A stretch of DNA of 64,000 nucleotides from Selenomonas ruminantium AC2024 (GTDB lineage: Bacteria > Bacillota > Negativicutes > Selenomonadales > Selenomonadaceae). The stretch spans positions 2,728,001-2,792,000 of the forward strand of contig NZ_JIAC01000001.1 of assembly GCF_000687995.1 (NCBI RefSeq), written 5' to 3'. How positions within the stretch are numbered: the first letter of the stretch is position 1; each line of letters starts with the position of its first letter. The position numbers and the translations under genes were made by a program. The notes under the pieces are model-generated. The model was given only the letters and a program-made list of their open reading frames with translations. It was not told the DNA's origin and did not search any database. This document shows, one piece after another, positions 1-61,320 of this stretch.

Positions 1-231
1 CCCCATATCCAGCCAGCGCTGAATCAGTGGACGAATCTGCACTTCATCGCCCATGGAGGCATAACACATGACGACCTTCGGCTCCTTGAAATCCGGCAAT
101 GCACAGAACACATCAATCATGCGCTGGCTGGCCTTTTGACGGTACGGCTCTTTCAGTTCCCGCCGAACCGCCAAAATCTTTGCACGCAAAGCCTTTTTCT
201 CAGCCAGCAGTTCCTTTTTATCCGTATCCAT
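1..231 (-). CDS. 5-formyltetrahydrofolate cyclo-ligase, C-terminus cut off by the window edge
   Basis: The first 77 codons of a minus-strand gene are visible; the rest lies before base 1. The N-terminus (MDTDKKELLAEKKALRAKIL, then VVMCYASMGDEVQIRPLI) has the lysine/arginine-rich helix and the strand carrying the YxSxxxEV-like segment typical of the 5-FTHF cyclo-ligase family (YgfA/FthC). Family members use ATP to turn 5-formyl-THF into 5,10-methenyl-THF in the cytosol. The ATG at 231 lies 3 bp after the yajC stop, so the gene is probably co-transcribed with tgt and yajC. The nucleotide-binding C-terminus cannot be checked here. Confidence 0.8.
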   Translation of the reverse strand, partial: MDTDKKELLAEKKALRAKILAVRRELKEPYRQKASQRMIDVFCALPDFKEPKVVMCYASMGDEVQIRPLIQRWLDMG

Positions 232-234
232 AAC

Positions 235-522
235 TTAGGCCTGCTTATCCTGGGTAATGTTGGCATTGATGGAAGCCCGGGAAACCTCAATCACCGTGTT
301 TTCGGCAATTTTCAACTTGATTACCTTATCGTCAATGCCCGCAATCGTACCGTAGATACCACCGATGGTCATAACCTTGTTGCCCTTTTCCAATGTATCG
401 AGCATGCTCATGCGGCGTTTCTGCGCCGCTTTCTGCGGACGATACAGAAGGAAATAGAAAATCGCAATCATCACAAAGATTGGGCCCCAAGTGCCCAAAG
501 CTGTCATGGTTTCCGGAGTCAT
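235..522 (-). CDS. yajC: Preprotein translocase accessory subunit YajC
   Basis: This encodes a small inner-membrane protein of about 95 residues with one N-terminal transmembrane helix (GPIFVMIAIFYFLLYRPQKA), followed by the basic RPQ..A.KRR segment and a short soluble domain beginning at about residue 50. That is the normal YajC layout. YajC associates with SecD-SecF at the SecYEG translocon. I start it at the ATG at 522 rather than the in-frame GTG at 531, because the GAGG ribosome site lies 8 nt before that ATG and abuts the GTG. It follows tgt by 24 bp. The tgt-yajC order is common in bacteria. Confidence 0.93.
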   Translation of the reverse strand: MTPETMTALGTWGPIFVMIAIFYFLLYRPQKAAQKRRMSMLDTLEKGNKVMTIGGIYGTIAGIDDKVIKLKIAENTVIEVSRASINANITQDKQA

Positions 523-546
523 AATAAGCACCTCTTCTTTAATTTA

Positions 547-1680
<1,134 letters not shown>

Positions 1681-1751
1681 TCAGCTGTCCAAGTGGTCTG
1701 ATGATAGACCACTACCAACCATAAATGATACCACAAAACAAGCCGAAACAC

Positions 1752-1802
1752 AAAAGAAAACTGCCGTATCACAGCGAAAGCCTGATACAGCAGTTTTCTT
1801 TT
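1752..1802 (-). terminator. Intrinsic terminator after yjfB
   Basis: This is a long hairpin with the arms AAAAGAAAACTGC and GCAGTTTTCTTTT and an inner GTATCA/TGATAC extension. The A/T-rich ends give a T-run on either strand. It starts at the yjfB stop codon and lies upstream of tgt, separating the two transcription units. Confidence 0.85.
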
Positions 1803-1977
1803 AAGCCTGAATATCCACCATCGTGCCCAGATTCGGGTCAACGGCCAGTTCCTCCAGCATTTCCTCTGCAGCAACTTCCGTGGTATCCATGGCCATTTTC
1901 AGAACCGCCATGCCCATATCCTGCATGGCCTGCCCTTGATGCATGTTCACCGACATTGCGGCGATACTCATATCCAT
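1801..1977 (-). CDS. YjfB family putative motility protein
   Basis: This is a 58-residue methionine-rich protein (MDMSIAAMSVNMHQGQAMQD) with a MxxxEVAAEEMLEEL segment and a C-terminal DPNLGTMVDIQA. It matches the small YjfB family, which Pfam labels a putative motility protein; the molecular function is unknown. I prefer the ATG at 1977 over the GTG at 1983, because GGAGG lies 7 nt before the ATG. A sigma-28-like promoter (2028-2053) fits a role linked to flagella. It is monocistronic, since a strong terminator follows immediately. Confidence 0.8.
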   Translation of the reverse strand: MDMSIAAMSVNMHQGQAMQDMGMAVLKMAMDTTEVAAEEMLEELAVDPNLGTMVDIQA

Positions 1978-2020
1978 AGCCACACCTCCTCAGCTAACTG
2001 AAGCAGCACATCCTTGTGCT

Positions 2021-2053
2021 ATTCTATATATCGAACGATTTGCGGACAAGTTA
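2021..2053 (-). promoter_or_regulatory. Candidate sigma-28 (SigD/FliA-type) promoter of yjfB
   Basis: The minus strand reads CTTAAC, 14 nt, TTCGATAT, close to the flagellar sigma consensus TAAA-N14/15-GCCGATAT. The identical arrangement occurs before the gene at 13132-13518. A housekeeping reading (TTGTCC, 17 nt, TAGAAT) overlaps it and cannot be excluded. Confidence 0.55.
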
Positions 2054-2089
2054 AGCCCCAAATTCATCAATCAGCGGATAAATCCCGCA

Positions 2090-3778
2090 TCACTTCTGCA
2101 GTAAATATCCCCTCCCGCTTATGAGCAGCTCTTTGCTTCCTTCGGGCCTCCGAACCGTAATCTCCGTGAAATACAGGCGGGACTTATCTTCGAGCAGGTA
2201 TTCATCATCGAGAACGACATTCTGCGTTCCCGCATCATTTTTATGCGCGGCCATAAGCCCCTTCACATAATCGTGGATATCCACCACTTGCTTATTTCCA
2301 TCTTCCAGCTGTATCACGGCCACTCCCCGCTTGACGGTAAAGGAATAAACCATTCGGAAACCGGCAACGGGAATTCCCTTTTGCCGTGGCTTAAAGACCA
2401 CTTTAGTCTGCTCCGTTCGCTTTTTTGTCTTGCCATTCGTTGGCTTGGCATTAATGTAGTAATCCCTCCAATTTATTTCATCGACCTGCCGGCAAAAGTC
2501 CTCCCTGCGCTCGCTGTCCAGATTGGATTCACAGATATACTCCACACAACTCCTTATAGCCGGCGTGCGTTCTGCAGAAATCGGATGGCTCATCACAATC
2601 CTGCCATCTTCATACAAACCTTCCTGCTCCAGCAGCGCGATTAAACGTGCCTGCTGATTATGCAGGGGCACCCGCATGACGTTAAGCGGAGTAATCGAAA
2701 AGACCAACAGCAAAACAGCCCCCAACAGAAAAAGCGGACGCATCCCCTGCCGCAGGAAGCGAAAGGCGAGCATCAGAATACCGCAGGCCGTACAAATCAT
2801 GGAAGCATAACGCAGGGAGGTAAGGCCGTAGGCTTCGTACCGAATCCAGATGCCACAGAACTGGACAACGAGGATGGGCAGGAAGAAAATCAGACCCCAA
2901 CGCATGAACTTTTCATACCAGCCCTTCTGAATATCATTCCAGAAGAAGTAGAAAAATCCATACCCGAGCATGGCCAGGGAAGCATACCAATTCATTTCCC
3001 CAATGGGCATGGCCTGTAGGATGATGATTTTACCAATGTACAGATAGAGAATCAGCAGCAAAAATACATAACAGGGAAATACCAGCCCTATGACCGAATT
3101 GCCCACGACTGGCTCTGCTGCCGACACTTCCTCATTTATCTCTGGTAACAGACACAGCAGCACATTGACCGCACAGGCAAAAGGCAACACGCCTAGCAGA
3201 AATAAGCTTGCCTCCATGGGAACAGGCAGCAGCAATGCCCGCACCGCCGCCAAACAAATCCCCAAAAGCAGGGAAATCATTCCGCCCAGAACACCAGCTG
3301 TTAGGAAAGCATTCGCAACGCACCGCAGCTGCGCACTCTGCCATTCCTTTTCCTTTGGCAGAAGCAGATAAAGAATCAGGCAAAGCCAAAAGCCGGGAAT
3401 GACAAAAAGGAACATCACCTGTTCTATCTCCGGCAAAAATTTCGTGCCAGCTTCCTGTATAATGCCCCAGAACAGTAGCGCACACCAGATTTTCCAGCGG
3501 TATTTTCCCGCCGGCCAGTCGCCCTTGCGTTCACGCCAAAGCTCCACTGCCACAGCCACCAGAATCAGCGACAACAGCCGAATCGTCCAGATAATCCAGT
3601 CCTTATCGATATCTTCCAGATTGACCTCTAGCAAGAATATGCCTTGATAGACAAGATGTACAAGATTCAGCAGAGCCGCCTCGGGAAACCGCGCCCAGAG
3701 CATTCTAAGCCGGCGTGTCATAATCTCCATGAAATTTTCTCTTAGGTATTGAAAACGAAAGGCTGATTTTTTCCACAT
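2090..3778 (-). CDS. DUF4153 family multi-spanning membrane protein
   Basis: This 562-residue protein begins with a basic region containing RFPEAALLNLVHLVYQ, followed by about ten hydrophobic helices up to roughly residue 360 and a soluble C-terminal domain of about 190 residues containing KTKKRTEQTKVVFK. The layout and the R-FP motif fit the DUF4153 family, whose function is unknown. The ribosome site is weak (GGTGAT), and an in-frame ATG 16 codons in (MEIMTRR) is a possible alternative start. It stands alone, with yjfB 113 bp downstream and the que operon terminator upstream. Confidence 0.7.
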   Translation of the reverse strand: MWKKSAFRFQYLRENFMEIMTRRLRMLWARFPEAALLNLVHLVYQGIFLLEVNLEDIDKDWIIWTIRLLSLILVAVAVELWRERKGDWPAGKYRWKIWCALLFWGIIQEAGTKFLPEIEQVMFLFVIPGFWLCLILYLLLPKEKEWQSAQLRCVANAFLTAGVLGGMISLLLGICLAAVRALLLPVPMEASLFLLGVLPFACAVNVLLCLLPEINEEVSAAEPVVGNSVIGLVFPCYVFLLLILYLYIGKIIILQAMPIGEMNWYASLAMLGYGFFYFFWNDIQKGWYEKFMRWGLIFFLPILVVQFCGIWIRYEAYGLTSLRYASMICTACGILMLAFRFLRQGMRPLFLLGAVLLLVFSITPLNVMRVPLHNQQARLIALLEQEGLYEDGRIVMSHPISAERTPAIRSCVEYICESNLDSERREDFCRQVDEINWRDYYINAKPTNGKTKKRTEQTKVVFKPRQKGIPVAGFRMVYSFTVKRGVAVIQLEDGNKQVVDIHDYVKGLMAAHKNDAGTQNVVLDDEYLLEDKSRLYFTEITVRRPEGSKELLISGRGYLLQK

Positions 3779-3880
3779 TTAAGTATCACCACTTCTTCAT
3801 TTTTCTCTGACAACTCACTGAAGAATAGGATACCCTATTATCATTATATTTCCATTAAAATCAGTCTTTTAGCAAAAAAT

Positions 3881-3924
3881 ACACGGCAAGGCTCTGCGAA
3901 AATATCCGTAAAGCCTTGCCGTGT
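3881..3924 (-). terminator. Intrinsic terminator of the queDE operon
   Basis: A perfect 13-bp stem (ACACGGCAAGGCT/AGCCTTGCCGTGT) lies 16 bp after the queE stop. On the minus strand it is followed by an interrupted T-tract (TATTTTTTGCT). Confidence 0.85.
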
Positions 3925-3940
3925 AAGTATTTATGCGTTT

Positions 3941-4672
3941 TTATATCTGCCCAATCATCTTATGCGTCTGCGGAATTACGCGCACATCCTTGAGTTTGGT
4001 CAGCGCGTAATTCTGGCAGATAAGGATTTTTTCCGGGCTGGCCGCCTGACAGCCGCCGTAAGGCGTGACCGGCTGGATGATAAAGAGTGTTTCCGGTGCC
4101 GTCTCTGCCACCAAATCAATGGCCTTGCGGAATTCTTCTTCCGTGGTTTCGTCGGCTACCACCAATTTGATATAAAGGTCTTTGGGCTTGGCCGTTTCGA
4201 TAAACTTCCTGTGCGCCTCCCACTGGGGCTGGCTCACGATGCTTGGCAGCTTGATATCCATGCTGATAATATCGGTGATGTCTATGATGCTCTCCAGTTG
4301 TTTGTACAGCGTGCCATTGGTTTCCAAAAAGACAGGCACTTCTACTTCCCTAGCCACTTCGCGGATAAAGTCTGCATGCAAGAGCGGCTCACCACCGGTA
4401 AAGCTCACAGCCTGATGAGGTACTTCCTTGCAAAGGCGGTTGATTTCCATAGCCACCTGCTCCGCCGAACGCGGATTGGGGAGCTTGGCAAACTCGCGGC
4501 TGCCCGCATAGGTTTCCACTTCGCACTGCGGATGACTGCCCGGCGCGTTTTCCGTGTCACAATAACTGCAATCGAGATTGCATCCCTCAAGACGCACAAA
4601 CACCTGACGGCAACCCACATACTTGCCTTCTCCCTGAATGGAGGAAAAAATTTCAATCAGATTTTCTTTCAT
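3941..4672 (-). CDS. queE: 7-carboxy-7-deazaguanine synthase (radical SAM)
   Basis: This 243-residue protein carries the radical SAM cluster motif GCNLDCSYCDT (Cys31, Cys35, Cys38) after an N-terminal IFSSIQGEGKYVGCRQVFVRL, the QueE signature, and the SFTGGEPLL segment. QueE converts 6-carboxytetrahydropterin to 7-carboxy-7-deazaguanine in queuosine biosynthesis, using a 4Fe-4S cluster and S-adenosylmethionine. It starts 3 bp after the queD stop and uses the QueD product as its substrate. queC and queF are not in the window. Confidence 0.95.
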   Translation of the reverse strand: MKENLIEIFSSIQGEGKYVGCRQVFVRLEGCNLDCSYCDTENAPGSHPQCEVETYAGSREFAKLPNPRSAEQVAMEINRLCKEVPHQAVSFTGGEPLLHADFIREVAREVEVPVFLETNGTLYKQLESIIDITDIISMDIKLPSIVSQPQWEAHRKFIETAKPKDLYIKLVVADETTEEEFRKAIDLVAETAPETLFIIQPVTPYGGCQAASPEKILICQNYALTKLKDVRVIPQTHKMIGQI

Positions 4673-13589: not shown

Positions 13590-13613
13590 TCAAAAAATTA
13601 CAATTTGTGAGTT

Positions 13614-14181
13614 AGTTCTTGCTGAAATATTTTTGTTACAGCTCAGTTTGGGCGGAAGTGGTAATACTTTTCGCCGTTGCACTAAATGACCCACAAGCAA
13701 ATGTATGGGCTTTTTAGCCACCTGCGCCGGGCAAGACCGGCGGCGCGTATGTTCAACCCAGTGTTTAGTTTGTGCCGTTTGTGGGCCATTCCTCACTGCG
13801 TTCGGACAGTCGTTTCACGGCGAAAAGCATCACCACCTCCGCCCTAAGCGATGTCCGTATAAGACGGCATTTTCGTGGTGACAAGCAGCAAGTACATCGA
13901 TGTTCTTGTTACGGGAGCAATGAATTCGTGACAATAGGCTAATCCGTAACTTGGGGCGGACGGGGAGTGCTTTTTCTGTTAGGAGCGATTGCCTGAACGC
14001 AGTGAAGGCCGGCCCCTGTAGGAAACAGCTAAGCAAATACGCTGAAAGCAGCGCCGTTGGCCTGCCCGGCGCGAGTAGCTGGACAGCTCTATTTTATGAA
14101 GGGGTCGTTTAGCGGGAAACAGAAAAAGTACTCCCCGTTCGCCCCTGACAACGTATGAACAGGATATCTTTAGCACGAACT
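13614..14181 (-). repeat. Head-to-head double-hairpin repeat, copy A (inverted orientation)
   Basis: This is a non-coding element of about 568 bp, homologous to copies at 41453-42043 and 60702-61293 but in the opposite orientation. One hairpin module spans 13951-14145 and the other 13647-13847. They flank a near-palindrome of 20 bp (13889-13908) at distances of 51-52 nt. Outer stem arms pair over about 28 bp with two G-U type positions. The left end AGTTCGTG is conserved (14174-14181); the end near 13614 is the least certain. It sits between the aspS terminator and the sigma-28-like promoter of the orphan gene. Short open frames inside it are not conserved in frame, so I do not call genes. 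Confidence 0.85.
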
Positions 14182-14188
14182 GAACTCG

Positions 14189-14224
14189 AAAAAGCCCGCT
14201 GACAAAAGTGTCAGCGGACTTTTT
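14189..14224 (-). terminator. Intrinsic terminator after aspS
   Basis: The stem AGCCCGCTGACA/TGTCAGCGGACT with loop AAAG is flanked by A and T runs. It lies 43 bp after the aspS stop and 8 bp from repeat copy A. It is almost identical to the terminator at 42048-42082. Confidence 0.9.
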
Positions 14225-14267
14225 CGCTGTTAGGGAATTATCCCCCAACCAGGACTCTATTGGTCAG

Positions 14268-39673: not shown

Positions 39674-41461
39674 GTGGAAAATCCATATTTTGCTGAAGCG
39701 CAGAATCTCCTGCGCAAATATTACGGTTATCCCGACTTCCGCCCCGCCCAAAAACCTGTGGTGGAAAGCCTCTTGCGGGGTTCTGACACATTGGCCATCA
39801 TGCCCACGGGTGCGGGCAAGAGCATCTGCTTTCAGCTGCCCGCGCTGGTATTCCCAGGCATTACCCTTGTCATCTCACCGCTTATCTCCCTGATGAAAGA
39901 CCAGGTGGATGCGCTGGCCGAGCAGGGCGTACCCGCTACCTATATCAACAGCCAGTTGACCCTTGAGCAATCAAACGCCCGCTTCAGCGCCATTGCCGAA
40001 GGCCGCTACAAGCTCATCTATGTGGCCCCGGAACGGCTAGACACCGACTACTTCCGCTACATCATCGAACGGCAGGAAATCTCCATGGTGGCCGTGGATG
40101 AAGCCCACTGTCTCTCCCAATGGGGCCATGACTTCCGCCCCAGCTACCGGCAGATTGCCCCCTTTATTGCAGGACTCCCCCGCCGTCCGCTGGTCAGCGC
40201 TTTTACCGCTACGGCCACACCGGAAGTCAAAGAGGACATCATCAGCCTCTTGCACCTGCGCCAGCCGCGGATTCATGTCACGGGCTTTGACCGTCCCAAC
40301 CTCTATTTTGAAGTGCGCCGCGGCGAGGATAAGAAGAAATTTATCGAAAAATACCTGAAAGCACATAAGGAGGAGGCCGGCATTATTTACGCCGCCACCC
40401 GCAAGGAAGTGGACAGCCTCTACGAACACCTCAAAAAGAAAAAGTTTGCCGTAGGACGCTACCATGCAGGCCTGTCCGACAAACAGCGCAATCAGGCACA
40501 GGATGATTTTCTCTACGACAACGTGCAGGTCATTGTGGCCACCAACGCCTTTGGCATGGGAATTGACAAGTCAAATGTCCGCTATGTCATCCACTACAAT
40601 ATGCCGAAAAACATCGAAGCCTACTATCAGGAAGCAGGCCGTGCGGGGCGCGATGGCGAACCCGGCAGCTGTATTCTGCTCTACTCACCGCAGGACGTCA
40701 TGACGCAGAAATATCTGATTGACGTGTCAATCGAAAACGAGGAACGCAAGGCGCACAACCTCGGCACTCTGCAAAAGATGGTGGACTACTGCCATACGCC
40801 GGAATGCCTGCGGCATTTCATCATCAGTTACTTTGGTGATACGAGTGCGGAGGTGACCTGCGATAATTGCGGCAACTGCAAGGCCGGGCTCGAAAAAAAC
40901 GATGTGACCATCGATGCCCAGAAGGTCTTTTCCTGCGTCTACCGCATGCACGAGCGCTTCGGTCTGACGCTTGTCGCACAGGTGCTCAAAGGCTCCAGCG
41001 ACAAACGGGTAAAGGAACTCCATTTCGATAAGCTCTCGACCTTCGGCCTTATGAAGGAACGGACGCTGGCTGACATCAAGCTATTAATTCAGCGCTTTAT
41101 CGCCACGGACTACTTAGGCCTGACCGAAAGCAAATTCCCCGTGGTCACGCTCAAGCCCGCCGCCTATCCCGTCCTCAAAGGACAGGAAAAAGTCTGGCAG
41201 GCCGTACCCAAACCGGAGAATGAAAAGGAACCCGCAGCACCAGAACTCTTCGACCATTTGCGCCACCTGCGCAAGGAAATCGCCACCCGCGAACACGTCC
41301 CACCCTATGTGGTCTTTTCCGACGCCACCCTCAAAGACATGTGCCGCGTCCAGCCCGCCACACTCGATGAAATGCTGGATGTAAAAGGTATCGGCGAAAT
41401 GAAGCTGCATAAATACGGACAGGAATTTCTGGATTGCATCAAAGCCCATAAAAGTTCGTGA
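39674..41461 (+). CDS. recQ: ATP-dependent DNA helicase RecQ
   Basis: This 595-residue protein has the RecQ helicase core with Walker A (MPTGAGKSICFQLP), DEAH (VDEAHCLSQWGHDFRPSY), FTATATPEV and the GRAGRDG motif VI, then the zinc-binding RQC domain (CLRHFIISYFGD, CDNCGNC) and a C-terminal HRDC domain (FDHLRHLRKEIATRE). It unwinds DNA in recombination and repair. The start is GTG at 39674. The last two codons and the stop (AGT TCG TGA) coincide with the left end of repeat copy B. Confidence 0.95.
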   Translation: MENPYFAEAQNLLRKYYGYPDFRPAQKPVVESLLRGSDTLAIMPTGAGKSICFQLPALVFPGITLVISPLISLMKDQVDALAEQGVPATYINSQLTLEQSNARFSAIAEGRYKLIYVAPERLDTDYFRYIIERQEISMVAVDEAHCLSQWGHDFRPSYRQIAPFIAGLPRRPLVSAFTATATPEVKEDIISLLHLRQPRIHVTGFDRPNLYFEVRRGEDKKKFIEKYLKAHKEEAGIIYAATRKEVDSLYEHLKKKKFAVGRYHAGLSDKQRNQAQDDFLYDNVQVIVATNAFGMGIDKSNVRYVIHYNMPKNIEAYYQEAGRAGRDGEPGSCILLYSPQDVMTQKYLIDVSIENEERKAHNLGTLQKMVDYCHTPECLRHFIISYFGDTSAEVTCDNCGNCKAGLEKNDVTIDAQKVFSCVYRMHERFGLTLVAQVLKGSSDKRVKELHFDKLSTFGLMKERTLADIKLLIQRFIATDYLGLTESKFPVVTLKPAAYPVLKGQEKVWQAVPKPENEKEPAAPELFDHLRHLRKEIATREHVPPYVVFSDATLKDMCRVQPATLDEMLDVKGIGEMKLHKYGQEFLDCIKAHKSS

Positions 41462-42043
41462 TAAAGGTATCTTGGTCATACGTAGTTTGGGGCCGAATGG
41501 GGGAGTAATTTTTCTGTTTTCCGCTAAACGACCCCCTCGCAAAATAAAGCTGTCCAGTTACCTGCGCCGGGCAGGCCAACGGCGCTGCTTTCAGCGTATT
41601 TTCTTAGCTTTCTCCTACATGGGGCCGGCCTTCACTGCGTTCAGGCAGTCGCTCCCTACAGAAAAATTACTCCCCCATTCGACCCAAGTCACGACCTATA
41701 CGATTGCCACGAACTCGTTGCTCCCATAACAAGAACATCGATGTACTTGCTCCTTATTACTGCGAAGATGGCGTTTTATACGGACTTCGCTTAGGGCGGA
41801 GGTAGTGATGCTTTTCGCCGTGGAACGACTGTCCGAACGCTGTGAGGACTGGCCCACAAACGGCACAGACTAAACACGGGGCTGAACATACGCGCCGCCG
41901 GTCTTGCCCGGCGCAGGCAACTATAAGCCCATAAATTTACTTGTGGGTCATTCAGTGCAACGGCGAAAAGTATTACCACCTCCACCCCAACTGAGCTGTA
42001 ACAAATATAATTAAGCTCGCATTAACATCGACAAACTGCAATT
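41453..42043 (+). repeat. Head-to-head double-hairpin repeat, copy B
   Basis: This non-coding element of 591 bp is homologous to copies A and C. Hairpin module 1 spans 41487-41687, with a 23-bp perfectly paired outer stem, and module 2 spans 41791-41990. A near-palindrome of 20 bp (41730-41749) lies midway, 51-52 nt from each module. Both modules contain GCGCC...GGCGC inner stems and a GAACGCAGTGA-like segment, showing that they are inverted homologues. The left end overlaps the recQ stop codon and the right end lies 5 bp from a terminator. The spacer fills the whole recQ to gltD-like gap. Short open frames inside are not conserved in frame. Confidence 0.9.
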
Positions 42044-42047
42044 CACT

Positions 42048-42082
42048 AAAAAGCCCGCTGACATTTTGTCAGCGGACTTTTT
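42048..42082 (-). terminator. Intrinsic terminator after the GltD-like gene
   Basis: The stem AGCCCGCTGACA/TGTCAGCGGACT with a 3-nt loop is flanked by A and T runs and lies 27 bp after the gene end. It differs from the aspS terminator at 14189-14224 essentially only in the loop. Confidence 0.9.
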
Positions 42083-42108
42083 ACGTTACGGATATTTCTT
42101 ATAACCAC

Positions 42109-56554: not shown

Positions 56555-57751
56555 TTATTTTTTATCTGCCATTCCCTGATAATCCCGGGGAGAAATCCCC
56601 ACATGCTTGCGGAACATCTTGGAAAACTGCACATAATCGCTATAGCCGACCTGCGCGGCCACTTCCTTGCATTGCAGATTACTGCCATTTTTCAGCAGGG
56701 CCTTGGCCTTGCCCATGCGGAACTGCAGCAGATAATCCGTGAAGCTGATGCCTGTCTCTTTCTTGAACCGCCCGCCCATATACGAAGCCGACATATGGGC
56801 CACCAAGGCCAGGTCGCCCAGCTTCACATCATCCATATAGTGTTCCTCAATATAATGACGCATGGATTCCACCATCTGACTGCCGCCCCATTTGCGTTCC
56901 CGCAATGTGCCGATAGATTCCGGGCTGCAGTGCTGCTTGAACGAACTCACAGTATCATAGATGGATTTTTCCATGGGAATACGGTCGAAGGTTGAACCGC
57001 CAATGTACCCTTGACAGTCCGTATTCTGGTAGATGTACTGCATATCCATCAGCGTGTTCGCCGGCCCGGCATAAACCATGCGCAGACATTCCGGATTTTT
57101 CACCTTGCATAAATCAAAAATCTCCTGCGCAATCCTCCGCGCTTCACTGATGGTCAAATGACGCTTAGCGCCCAAAAGGCCGCCAGCCGTCAGCCCCATA
57201 TGCACACAGATGATATCGGCCCCCACCGCCAGCATTTTATCGGCCTCTTCCACAGATGTCACAAAGGCCATCGTCAAAAGGCCCAGCTGATTCGCCAAAC
57301 TTATCGCGACCACTTCCCGCTCATAGGAACTGCCCTCTTCTTCCAACGCTTCGCGGAAACTGCCATCCACCAACGCCAATGTTGGTGAATTCACCACACC
57401 GGTAAAGCCGCTTTCCTTTATGAGCTTCAGATAATCATAGAGCTTCACATAAGGGTCACTGGCCATCAGGCCAAAGAGCAGCGGCACATCCTGCACCACG
57501 GGAAAAATCTCTCGCTTGCCCATGTCCATCACAATCTGATTGCTGCTGCCATAGCAAAAAAAACTGCTCAGGGAACTGCGGCCCATAATGCGGAATTTTC
57601 CTGCGGATAAGGCCAGCAGAATATCTGCGCCGCCCATAGCCGCAAGTTTGGCCGTCATGCCGGACCCTACAGCCGCACCAATGATATGGCCGCCGACATT
57701 GATTTCCGCCCGCAGGCGCCGAAGGATGAATTCCTTGTCGTTTTCCTTCAT
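56555..57751 (-). CDS. PEP-hydrolase-family TIM barrel fused to an AraC DNA-binding domain
   Basis: The 398-residue product has two parts. Residues 1-280 form a phosphoenolpyruvate hydrolase-like TIM barrel (INVGGHIIGAAVGSGMTAKL, ADILLALSAGKFRIMG, GVVNSPTLALVDG, GADIICVHMGLTAGG, YIGGSTFDRIP). Residues 290-398 form a pair of AraC helix-turn-helix motifs (VKLGDLALVAHMSASYMGGR; CKEVAAQVGYSDYVQFSKMF). It is likely a transcription regulator whose sensor is an enzyme-like barrel. It is encoded directly upstream of the uronate operon and overlaps its paralogue by four bases. The target and ligand are unknown. Confidence 0.85.
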   Translation of the reverse strand: MKENDKEFILRRLRAEINVGGHIIGAAVGSGMTAKLAAMGGADILLALSAGKFRIMGRSSLSSFFCYGSSNQIVMDMGKREIFPVVQDVPLLFGLMASDPYVKLYDYLKLIKESGFTGVVNSPTLALVDGSFREALEEEGSSYEREVVAISLANQLGLLTMAFVTSVEEADKMLAVGADIICVHMGLTAGGLLGAKRHLTISEARRIAQEIFDLCKVKNPECLRMVYAGPANTLMDMQYIYQNTDCQGYIGGSTFDRIPMEKSIYDTVSSFKQHCSPESIGTLRERKWGGSQMVESMRHYIEEHYMDDVKLGDLALVAHMSASYMGGRFKKETGISFTDYLLQFRMGKAKALLKNGSNLQCKEVAAQVGYSDYVQFSKMFRKHVGISPRDYQGMADKK

Positions 57752-60588: not shown

Positions 60589-60701
60589 AATCCCAACCCC
60601 TCTAATCAATAATTTATTCACATGATATAATAAATTTCTTAAAAATTCCTTAAAAGCTAACCATCTTCTTCAGTTTTTGGGCAAATTGCATTTTATCAGG
60701 G

Positions 60702-61293
60702 AGTTCGTGATAAAGGTATCTTGGTCATACGTAGTTTGGGGCCGGACGGGGGAGTAATTTTTCTGTTTTCCGCTAAACGACCCCCTCGCAAATTAGAACT
60801 GTCCAGTTATCTGCGCCGGGCAGGCCAACGGCGCTGCTTTCAGCGTATTTGCTTAGCTGATTCCTACATGGGGCCGGCCTTCACTGCGTTCAGGCAGTCG
60901 CTCCCTACAGAAAAATCACTCCCCCGTCCGCCCCAAGTTGCGGATTAGACATTTGCCACGAACTCGTTGCTCCCGTAACAAGAACATCGATGTACTTGCT
61001 CCTTGTCATCATGAGAATAACAGTTGGTACGGACATCACTTAGGGCGGAGGTGGTGATGCTTTTCGCCGTGGAACGACTGTCCGAACGCAGTGAGGACTG
61101 GCCCACAAACGGCATAGACTAAACACTGGGCTGAACATACGCGCCGCCGGTCTTGCCCGGCGCAGGTAACTAAAAAGCCCATACATTTACTTGTGGGGCA
61201 TTCAGTGCAACGGCGAAAAGTATTACCACCTCCGCCCAAACTGAGCTGTAACAACTATAAGTAAGCACGCATTAACATCGACATACTGCAATT
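60702..61293 (+). repeat. Head-to-head double-hairpin repeat, copy C
   Basis: This non-coding element of 592 bp has the same orientation as copy B and closely similar sequence. Module 1 is at 60736-60936 and module 2 at 61040-61239; the central near-palindrome is at 60979-60998, 51-52 nt from each. In the module 1 stem, base pairs differ from copy B by compensatory A-T to G-C and T-A to C-G changes. It sits in the divergent promoter region between the YgiB-like gene and the DUF2939 gene, so the remaining gap is 60589-60701 (AT-rich, probably the YgiB-like promoter). Confidence 0.9.
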
Positions 61294-61320
61294 TCTCTGC
61301 CCTTTTTAATTTTCCCTTAA

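Follow-up and report, generated by a model that had tools for sequence, protein, structure and literature searches.

REPINs, REP doublets mobilised by RAYTs, are symmetrical pairs of inverted hairpin units that are intergenic, multi-copy and show compensatory changes; they are short, with 71 bp between the 16-mers of a GI doublet (PMC3116915), and are built from REP palindromes of 20-40 bp in inverted pairs (PMC3733652). Bacterial MITEs such as Correia, ERIC, RUP, BOX and QMITE are non-coding and intergenic with inverted ends and expected structured transcripts, the reviewed elements being described as under 200 bp, mostly AT-rich and with target-site duplications (PMC10969869, PMC2229807). 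CIR of Caulobacter/Brucella has two long arms joined by a linker, while YPAL of Yersinia, 168 bp in length, has internal inverted repeats and is not AT-rich (PMC2229807). Pneumococcal BOX is modular, built of boxA, boxB and boxC, can be expressed and is over-represented between convergent genes (PMC3049150). In Wolbachia, 2 of 22 ISWpi1 loci are inverted through TIR-TIR recombination, with the same copy flipped at the same site and with the same junctions (PMC3004938). Here we describe an apparently non-coding element of about 600 bp from rumen Selenomonas, present in dozens of copies and composed of two mirror-image, RNA-like hairpin modules, in which the copy occupying a given chromosomal site is often replaced by another copy in either direction.

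We analysed a window of 64,000 nucleotides (positions 2,728,001-2,792,000) from the single-contig genome of Selenomonas ruminantium AC2024 (2,831,713 bp, designated G000; other genomes compared carry G numbers and individual loci carry L numbers). Its AspS protein is 100 % identical to that of several S. ruminantium genomes, among them ATCC 12561. The initial annotation had described three elements of 570-590 bp at 13614-14181, 41453-42043 and 60702-61293, each with a central near-palindrome and a hairpin module of about 200 nt on either side, homologous to each other when read outward. This observation was confirmed, although the number of copies and the position of the ends had been underestimated. 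BLAST with the second copy (copy B) identified 33 places in G000, 31 near full length at 77.5-91 % identity to B and 2 partial. Alignment of the 31 showed that full copies are bounded by inverted ends, AAATTGCAGTTTGT and ACAAACTGCAATTT, outside the coordinates given initially; both ends are recognisable in 20 of 31 copies, 592-614 bp apart. All 21 exact matches to the end pattern AAATTGCAGTTTRT in G000 lie at element ends, as do 13 of 17 one-mismatch matches (the other 4 do not), while the reversed control pattern gave none. Over 151 ends compared, positions -4 to +7 are 88-98 % conserved.

Copy C (60683-61294, + strand) is complete, 612 bp end to end, with end repeats at 60683-60696 (+, AAATTGCATTTTAT) and 61281-61294 (+, ACATACTGCAATTT), a left module at 60739-60934 (outward strand -), a central near-palindrome CAAGAACATCGATGTACTTG at 60979-60998 and a right module at 61040-61244 (outward strand +). 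Copies A and B have each lost one end. Copy A (13595-14181, - strand) is inverted relative to B and C and lies downstream of aspS, named from its Pfam domains; its end repeat on the aspS side is lost and the other, AAATTACAATTTGT, is at 13595-13608 (-). Its right-type module lies at 13647-13847 (outward strand -), its central near-palindrome CAAGTACATCGATGTTCTTG at 13889-13908 and its left-type module at 13953-14145 (outward strand +). Copy B (41453-42044, + strand) lies between recQ and an FAD/NAD oxidoreductase gene and has lost its left end repeat, so that the element abuts the 3′ end of recQ; it comprises a left module at 41490-41685 (outward strand -), a central near-palindrome at 41730-41749, a right module at 41791-41990 (outward strand +) and a right end repeat ACAAACTGCAATTC at 42031-42044 (+). 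Terminator-like hairpins with the motif AAAAGTCCGCTGAC adjoin copy A (14187-14226, between aspS and the element) and copy B (42047-42083).

From the centre outward the element consists of a palindrome (CAAG-A-ACATCGATGT-A-CTTG in copy C), a conserved stretch, a module on each side with an outer stem and an inner branched part, and the inverted end. In the three window copies each module forms one long hairpin with stem arms of 28-40 nt, 81-96 % complementary and 128-140 nt apart. The initial annotation placed the modules 51-52 nt from the centre in every copy, and we read off about this spacing in A and C. Copy B aligns to its own reverse complement at 61.6 % over 568 nt, and to that of 29 of the other 30 near-full copies at 60-64 % over 431-620 nt, and a joint alignment of left and right modules over nine genomes shows one shared topology. 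Covariation and length variation make a conserved reading frame unlikely. Single-sequence folds of copy C are far from chance (z = -8.45 for the right and -7.18 for the left module, 0 of 200 shuffles each).

Covariation in the modules is strong. In a core alignment of 27 left and right modules from the same nine genomes, 10 of 17 predicted pairs change on both sides against a shuffled mean of 5.4 (1 of 500 shuffles as high; slid versions 1-3), 94.8 % of cells pair against 29-41 % when the partner is slid, and the covariation score of 0.425 exceeds all 500 shuffles (mean 0.197), although one further measure, 17 further pair types, is reached by 80 of 500. Shuffling does not remove relatedness and some changes separate the left from the right module class, so these values are not a probability. 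Among the 90 right and 90 left modules extracted (86 and 87 distinct), 10 of 34 and 12 of 32 pairs change on both sides (slid versions at most 3 and 4). On the outward strand G.U outnumbers A.C by 256 to 16 (right) and 150 to 15 (left), although 157 of the 256 cells come from two columns and 70 of the 150 from one, and consensus folding favours this strand by 11 kcal/mol on each side and by 13 in the joint alignment. A duplex-DNA cruciform would show no such bias whereas single-stranded RNA or single-stranded DNA would, suggesting that selection acts on a single-stranded fold, probably RNA. No Rfam family matched the window at the gathering threshold, copy C at E ≤ 5, or six loci of other genomes.

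With copy C as the DNA query, 15 of 22 genomes of the genus (G000 included) and 0 of 19 others matched. The layout of ends, modules and central ACATCGATGT is kept, by eye, in genomes whose elements are 65-82 % identical; a match to a known Rfam or ISfinder/MITE family, or loss of the spacing and two-module symmetry across many copies, had been named in advance as refuting the initial reading, and, with family matches sought in Rfam only, neither was observed. A covariance model of the module core, with rough E-values and strict filters, finds 26 of 151 genomes and 5 of 30 genera of the family, including 17 of the 22 genomes of the genus. Outside the genus the best matches are 2.4e-15 (G063, one match), 4.6e-12 (G051, one), 1.8e-10 (G047, 16 matches) and 7.0e-8 (G105, 4), those of G082 and G124 near 1e-4 being weak. 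By eye, G105 (L270) has a head-to-head pair, several related-looking hairpin modules lie within about 1 kb of each other in G047 (L269, contig 6, around 747,000), and G014, a member of the genus missed by the DNA query but with 27 model matches, has two hairpin modules between ACAAACTGGAATTT and AACTTCCAGTTTGT. One S. ruminantium plasmid matched among 72,556 records. A phage origin was rejected as no match was found in 50,697 phage records, nor any exact match in IMG/VR for one 21-base core pattern, an insensitive search.

Conservation of structure and loop motifs over several genera could indicate host-serving non-coding RNA genes, a divergent pair transcribed from a central promoter and homogenised only by gene conversion, and in copy A a TTGTCA-17-TATACG arrangement reads outward right of the centre, by our own inspection of the sequence. 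We consider this unlikely given the 33 copies, the lack of even a covariance model match in 5 of 22 genomes of the genus (G008, G010, G018, G019, G021), the interruption of elements by ISs and their reduction to half forms at several sites. Recurrent short forms (L065, L066, L202, L033, L222, L223, L228) have one module deleted at similar points, or left and right modules fused into one hybrid hairpin, while in G011, a close relative, L224, L225 and L226 carry the central segment of about 80 nt two or three times in tandem.

Comparison between genomes showed that sites are shared while their occupants differ. At aspS, the window and seven other loci with a 99-100 % identical protein have an element directly after the aspS terminator, five one way round (window, L064, L065, L066, L131) and three the other (L067, L069, L111), with L064, L069 and L131 cut by contig ends inside the element; the other 73 of 80 loci compared had no hit in the stretch examined. 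Between G000 and G011, which has at least 30 copies, 27 of 33 G000 sites have an element at the matching site (three of them, a duplicated region, match one G011 site), and with L003, L012 and L021 this rises to 30 of 33. L008 and L022 found no match and L025 matched on one flank only, the comparison covering 30 G011 loci plus four further stretches. Ten of the 27 are inverted. Both copies are near full length in 24 G000 rows, or 22 pairs when the duplicated region L014/L015/L023 is counted once. Of these, seven same-way pairs stay at 91-98 % identity, seven same-way and seven inverted pairs are at 76-89 %, the level of unrelated copies (mean 85.6 % within G000), and one inverted pair, L019/L145, is at 92 %, nearly tied with other copies. 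About two thirds of comparable pairs thus hold a different copy, half of those inverted, although these classes were set after seeing the values. Association between inversion and replacement gives Fisher p = 0.022 if L019/L145 counts as replaced and 0.167 if it counts as kept. The element at G000 L026 is 96.9 % identical to G011 L158, which sits at another site (that of G000 L024), the match running end to end and stopping outside. Two elements at different loci in G017 (L218, L219) have identical left parts (252/252).

Copies tend to lie at gene 3′ ends, as other bacterial repeats do (PMC3049150); with a crude ORF rule, 15 of 33 lie between converging and 6 between diverging genes. Many lie beside terminator-like hairpins, and the nearly identical hairpin carrying AAAAGTCCGCTGAC lies beside 14 of 33, including L014/L015/L023, L020, L022 and L024; several non-terminator flanks read close to ATCCACACATAT before the end. 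The motif stays with the flank where the cassette is exchanged (for instance L018, L024, L026) and so is not part of the exchanged unit. Repeated independent insertion into such sites, with loss of the earlier copy, appears improbable however: 21 of 26 near-exact genome hits to the motif lie beside an element, so that it looks like a companion rather than a pre-existing target, and 30 of 33 shared sites would be hard to reach by independent choice among all gene ends. One such terminator without an element (L230, G000 56600-57200) is followed by ACTTACAATTTATC, which resembles an end repeat and perhaps marks a vacated site. At the L003 site G000 has a full element, G011 a short form and G020 a full inverted one, while in other genomes (L204-L207), by eye, a different set of long hairpin repeats and small hydrophobic ORFs occupies the site. 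At the L144 site G011 has an element, five genomes (G000, G003, G007, G016, G020) do not and two are cut off. We found no constant target-site duplication at the ends of the aligned copies and no clean empty site at L003 or L144, where regions without the element differ too much for the original insertion to be read. In G000, 11 of 33 copies lie within 250 kb of coordinate 0 (p = 0.035, KS p = 0.012), but 9 of 31 (p = 0.10) after dropping two duplicated copies; as position 0 was not shown to be the origin, we do not claim origin-proximal clustering.

The inverted alleles bear on whether two ordinary processes could suffice, TIR-TIR homologous recombination flipping an element in place and separate ectopic gene conversion making the sequences differ, without a dedicated enzyme. 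In favour, L019/L145 is inverted and still the best match (91.6 % or 92.1 %, depending on the comparison), and copies do recombine by homology. The 4,692-bp S. ruminantium plasmid pSR1 (RefSeq NC_002139.1, L296) has four annotated genes, none annotated as a replication gene, and its 4,207 bp from 184 to 4390 are 100 % identical to G013 (contig C49, 8000-16500, L302), where the stretch is flanked by one full and one truncated element in the same direction. Its length is the distance between equal points of the two elements, and left of the crossover it equals one copy and right of it the other, with the switch between 4558 and 52. The simplest reading is a chromosomal circle released by homologous recombination between two copies in HD4-like DNA. 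Some copies may also be mosaic (L024/L147), so that ordinary gene conversion may contribute. Simple inversion however predicts inverted pairs as similar as their flanks. Over eight genomes, after dropping three rows involving L067 (the same genome as G020), 67 pairs remain, 20 inverted with none at or above 93 % and 47 same-way with 5 at or above 93 %, although flank identity averages 84-97 % per genome pair. These pairs are not independent and include some matched on one flank only, a few with flanks at 72-75 % that may not be orthologous. A simple inverton was rejected for most pairs on these grounds. The conserved end of 12-14 bp is short for RecA, and 10 of 27 G000/G011 sites are inverted against 2 of 22 in Wolbachia. 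We regard the two-process reading as doubtful, though it is the strongest of the alternatives.

The change of occupant starts at the end repeat, as inverted alleles keep the flank up to it at one or both ends in 9 of 10 G000/G011 pairs, by eye. The end contains a 12-bp near-palindrome, AAATTGCAGTTT, palindromic at 10 of 12 positions. In 26 inverted-end comparisons, counted by eye with two mis-called ends (L159) dropped, a rare variant in the outer half of the 12-mer is shared with the partner flank in 7 of 16 cases (AACT, AAGT, CAAT and TACA types, five sites) and one in the inner half in 0 of 7, and identity falls after +8; the exchange therefore begins at or within the end repeat, without the exact point being fixed. 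This would be consistent with a site-specific recombinase using the 12-mer as crossover site and shuffling cassettes among fixed sites, the palindromic core making orientation random, as would the 7 same-way and 7 inverted replacements. Five of 30 G011 sites lack a two-flank G000 partner, so site gain or loss looks rarer than replacement. However no candidate enzyme was identified, 9 of 16 outer variants are not shared, and single crossovers between so many ends should also cause large rearrangements, whereas G000/G011 flank pairs mostly keep their partners. We consider this reading unlikely, and similarly speculative its fullest form, a genome-wide cassette-exchange system of 30 or more fixed sites through which cassettes carrying two mirror-image structured RNAs are shuffled in random orientation by a dedicated recombinase, the folded strand itself perhaps being the substrate.

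We found no transposase or recombinase with matching ends when the end pattern was searched in G000, G017, G011 and G005, RAYT being the only mobility family for which genomes were searched by profile. Units of 2.1-2.3 kb in G017 and G005 looked promising by end spacing but are elements interrupted by ordinary ISs. In L218, L219 and L220 of G017 a DDE-transposase IS sits in the GC-rich stem base of a module, apparently with 9-bp duplications, and the hairpin may be a specific target; in L221 of G005 an IS110-type IS interrupts the left module. The RAYT family (Y1_Tnp, PF01797) had no match at E ≤ 0.001 in the copy-rich G000, G011 and G017, nor in G001, G002 and G006, all with the element, although 13 of 22 genomes of the genus do have a match.

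Taken together, we favour, with a probability of roughly 0.6, a MITE-like, non-autonomous structured cassette of the S. ruminantium clade whose occupant is exchanged end to end in either orientation. The sequences themselves establish the inverted ends, the central palindrome, the two homologous outward-facing modules keeping one secondary structure through compensatory changes, the strand bias, the sharing of sites, end-to-end replacement in both orientations and, from the make-up of pSR1, homologous recombination between copies. It is by inference only that the cassette would be cut, exchanged or copied at its ends by a transposase or recombinase acting in trans, or by gap repair primed on the ends, internal homology probably not aligning the partners because inverted and same-way replacements are equally common. 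Transcription, and RNA rather than single-stranded DNA as the folded species, are likewise inferred. In this view the symmetrical design gives each DNA strand one correctly oriented module, so that a transcript through the element in either direction would carry a folded module, which may act as a 3′-region structure (mRNA end, processing or protein binding) or in the mobility reaction itself. The element adds a large covarying, RNA-like module family, found in several genera of one bacterial family and absent from Rfam, arranged as a mirror-image mobile unit. As sites stay put while occupants change place and direction, it separates where a repeat sits from which copy sits there, gives a natural record of end-specific exchange and predicts breakpoints inside AAATTGCAGTTT.

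The initial annotation had read the repeat as an oversized REPIN-like mobile unit or a pair of structured RNAs, with an arrangement not known from any described family, and this interpretation is partly supported. The head-to-head dimer, the mobile unit, single-strand structure and absence of an Rfam match are supported, whereas REPIN membership is not; the inverted ends, the 33 copies and the fixed sites with exchanged and inverted occupants had been missed. Literature searches, confined to open-licence PMC papers and judged from titles and the beginnings of abstracts, listed none that we recognised as describing a covarying branched RNA-like module, a head-to-head dimer and exchange of occupants in combination. 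The element resembles REPINs in being a mirror pair of hairpins, but is about 600 bp with branched 200-nt modules and inverted ends, and lacks a RAYT match in the genomes given above. It works like a MITE in being short, end-bounded and multi-copy, and has the inverted ends of one, although neither a target-site duplication nor a partner transposon could be shown; it differs from those reviewed in its length, its GC-rich modules, its covarying branched fold and the exchange of occupants. CIR shares two long arms and YPAL internal inverted repeats, although no homologous head-to-head modules are described for them in the text consulted, and for BOX, similarly modular, neither a mirror pair nor occupant exchange is described there. 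Like the ISWpi1 inversions it keeps site and junctions while changing direction, but there the same copy flips whereas here mostly a different copy is found, in either orientation, at many sites.
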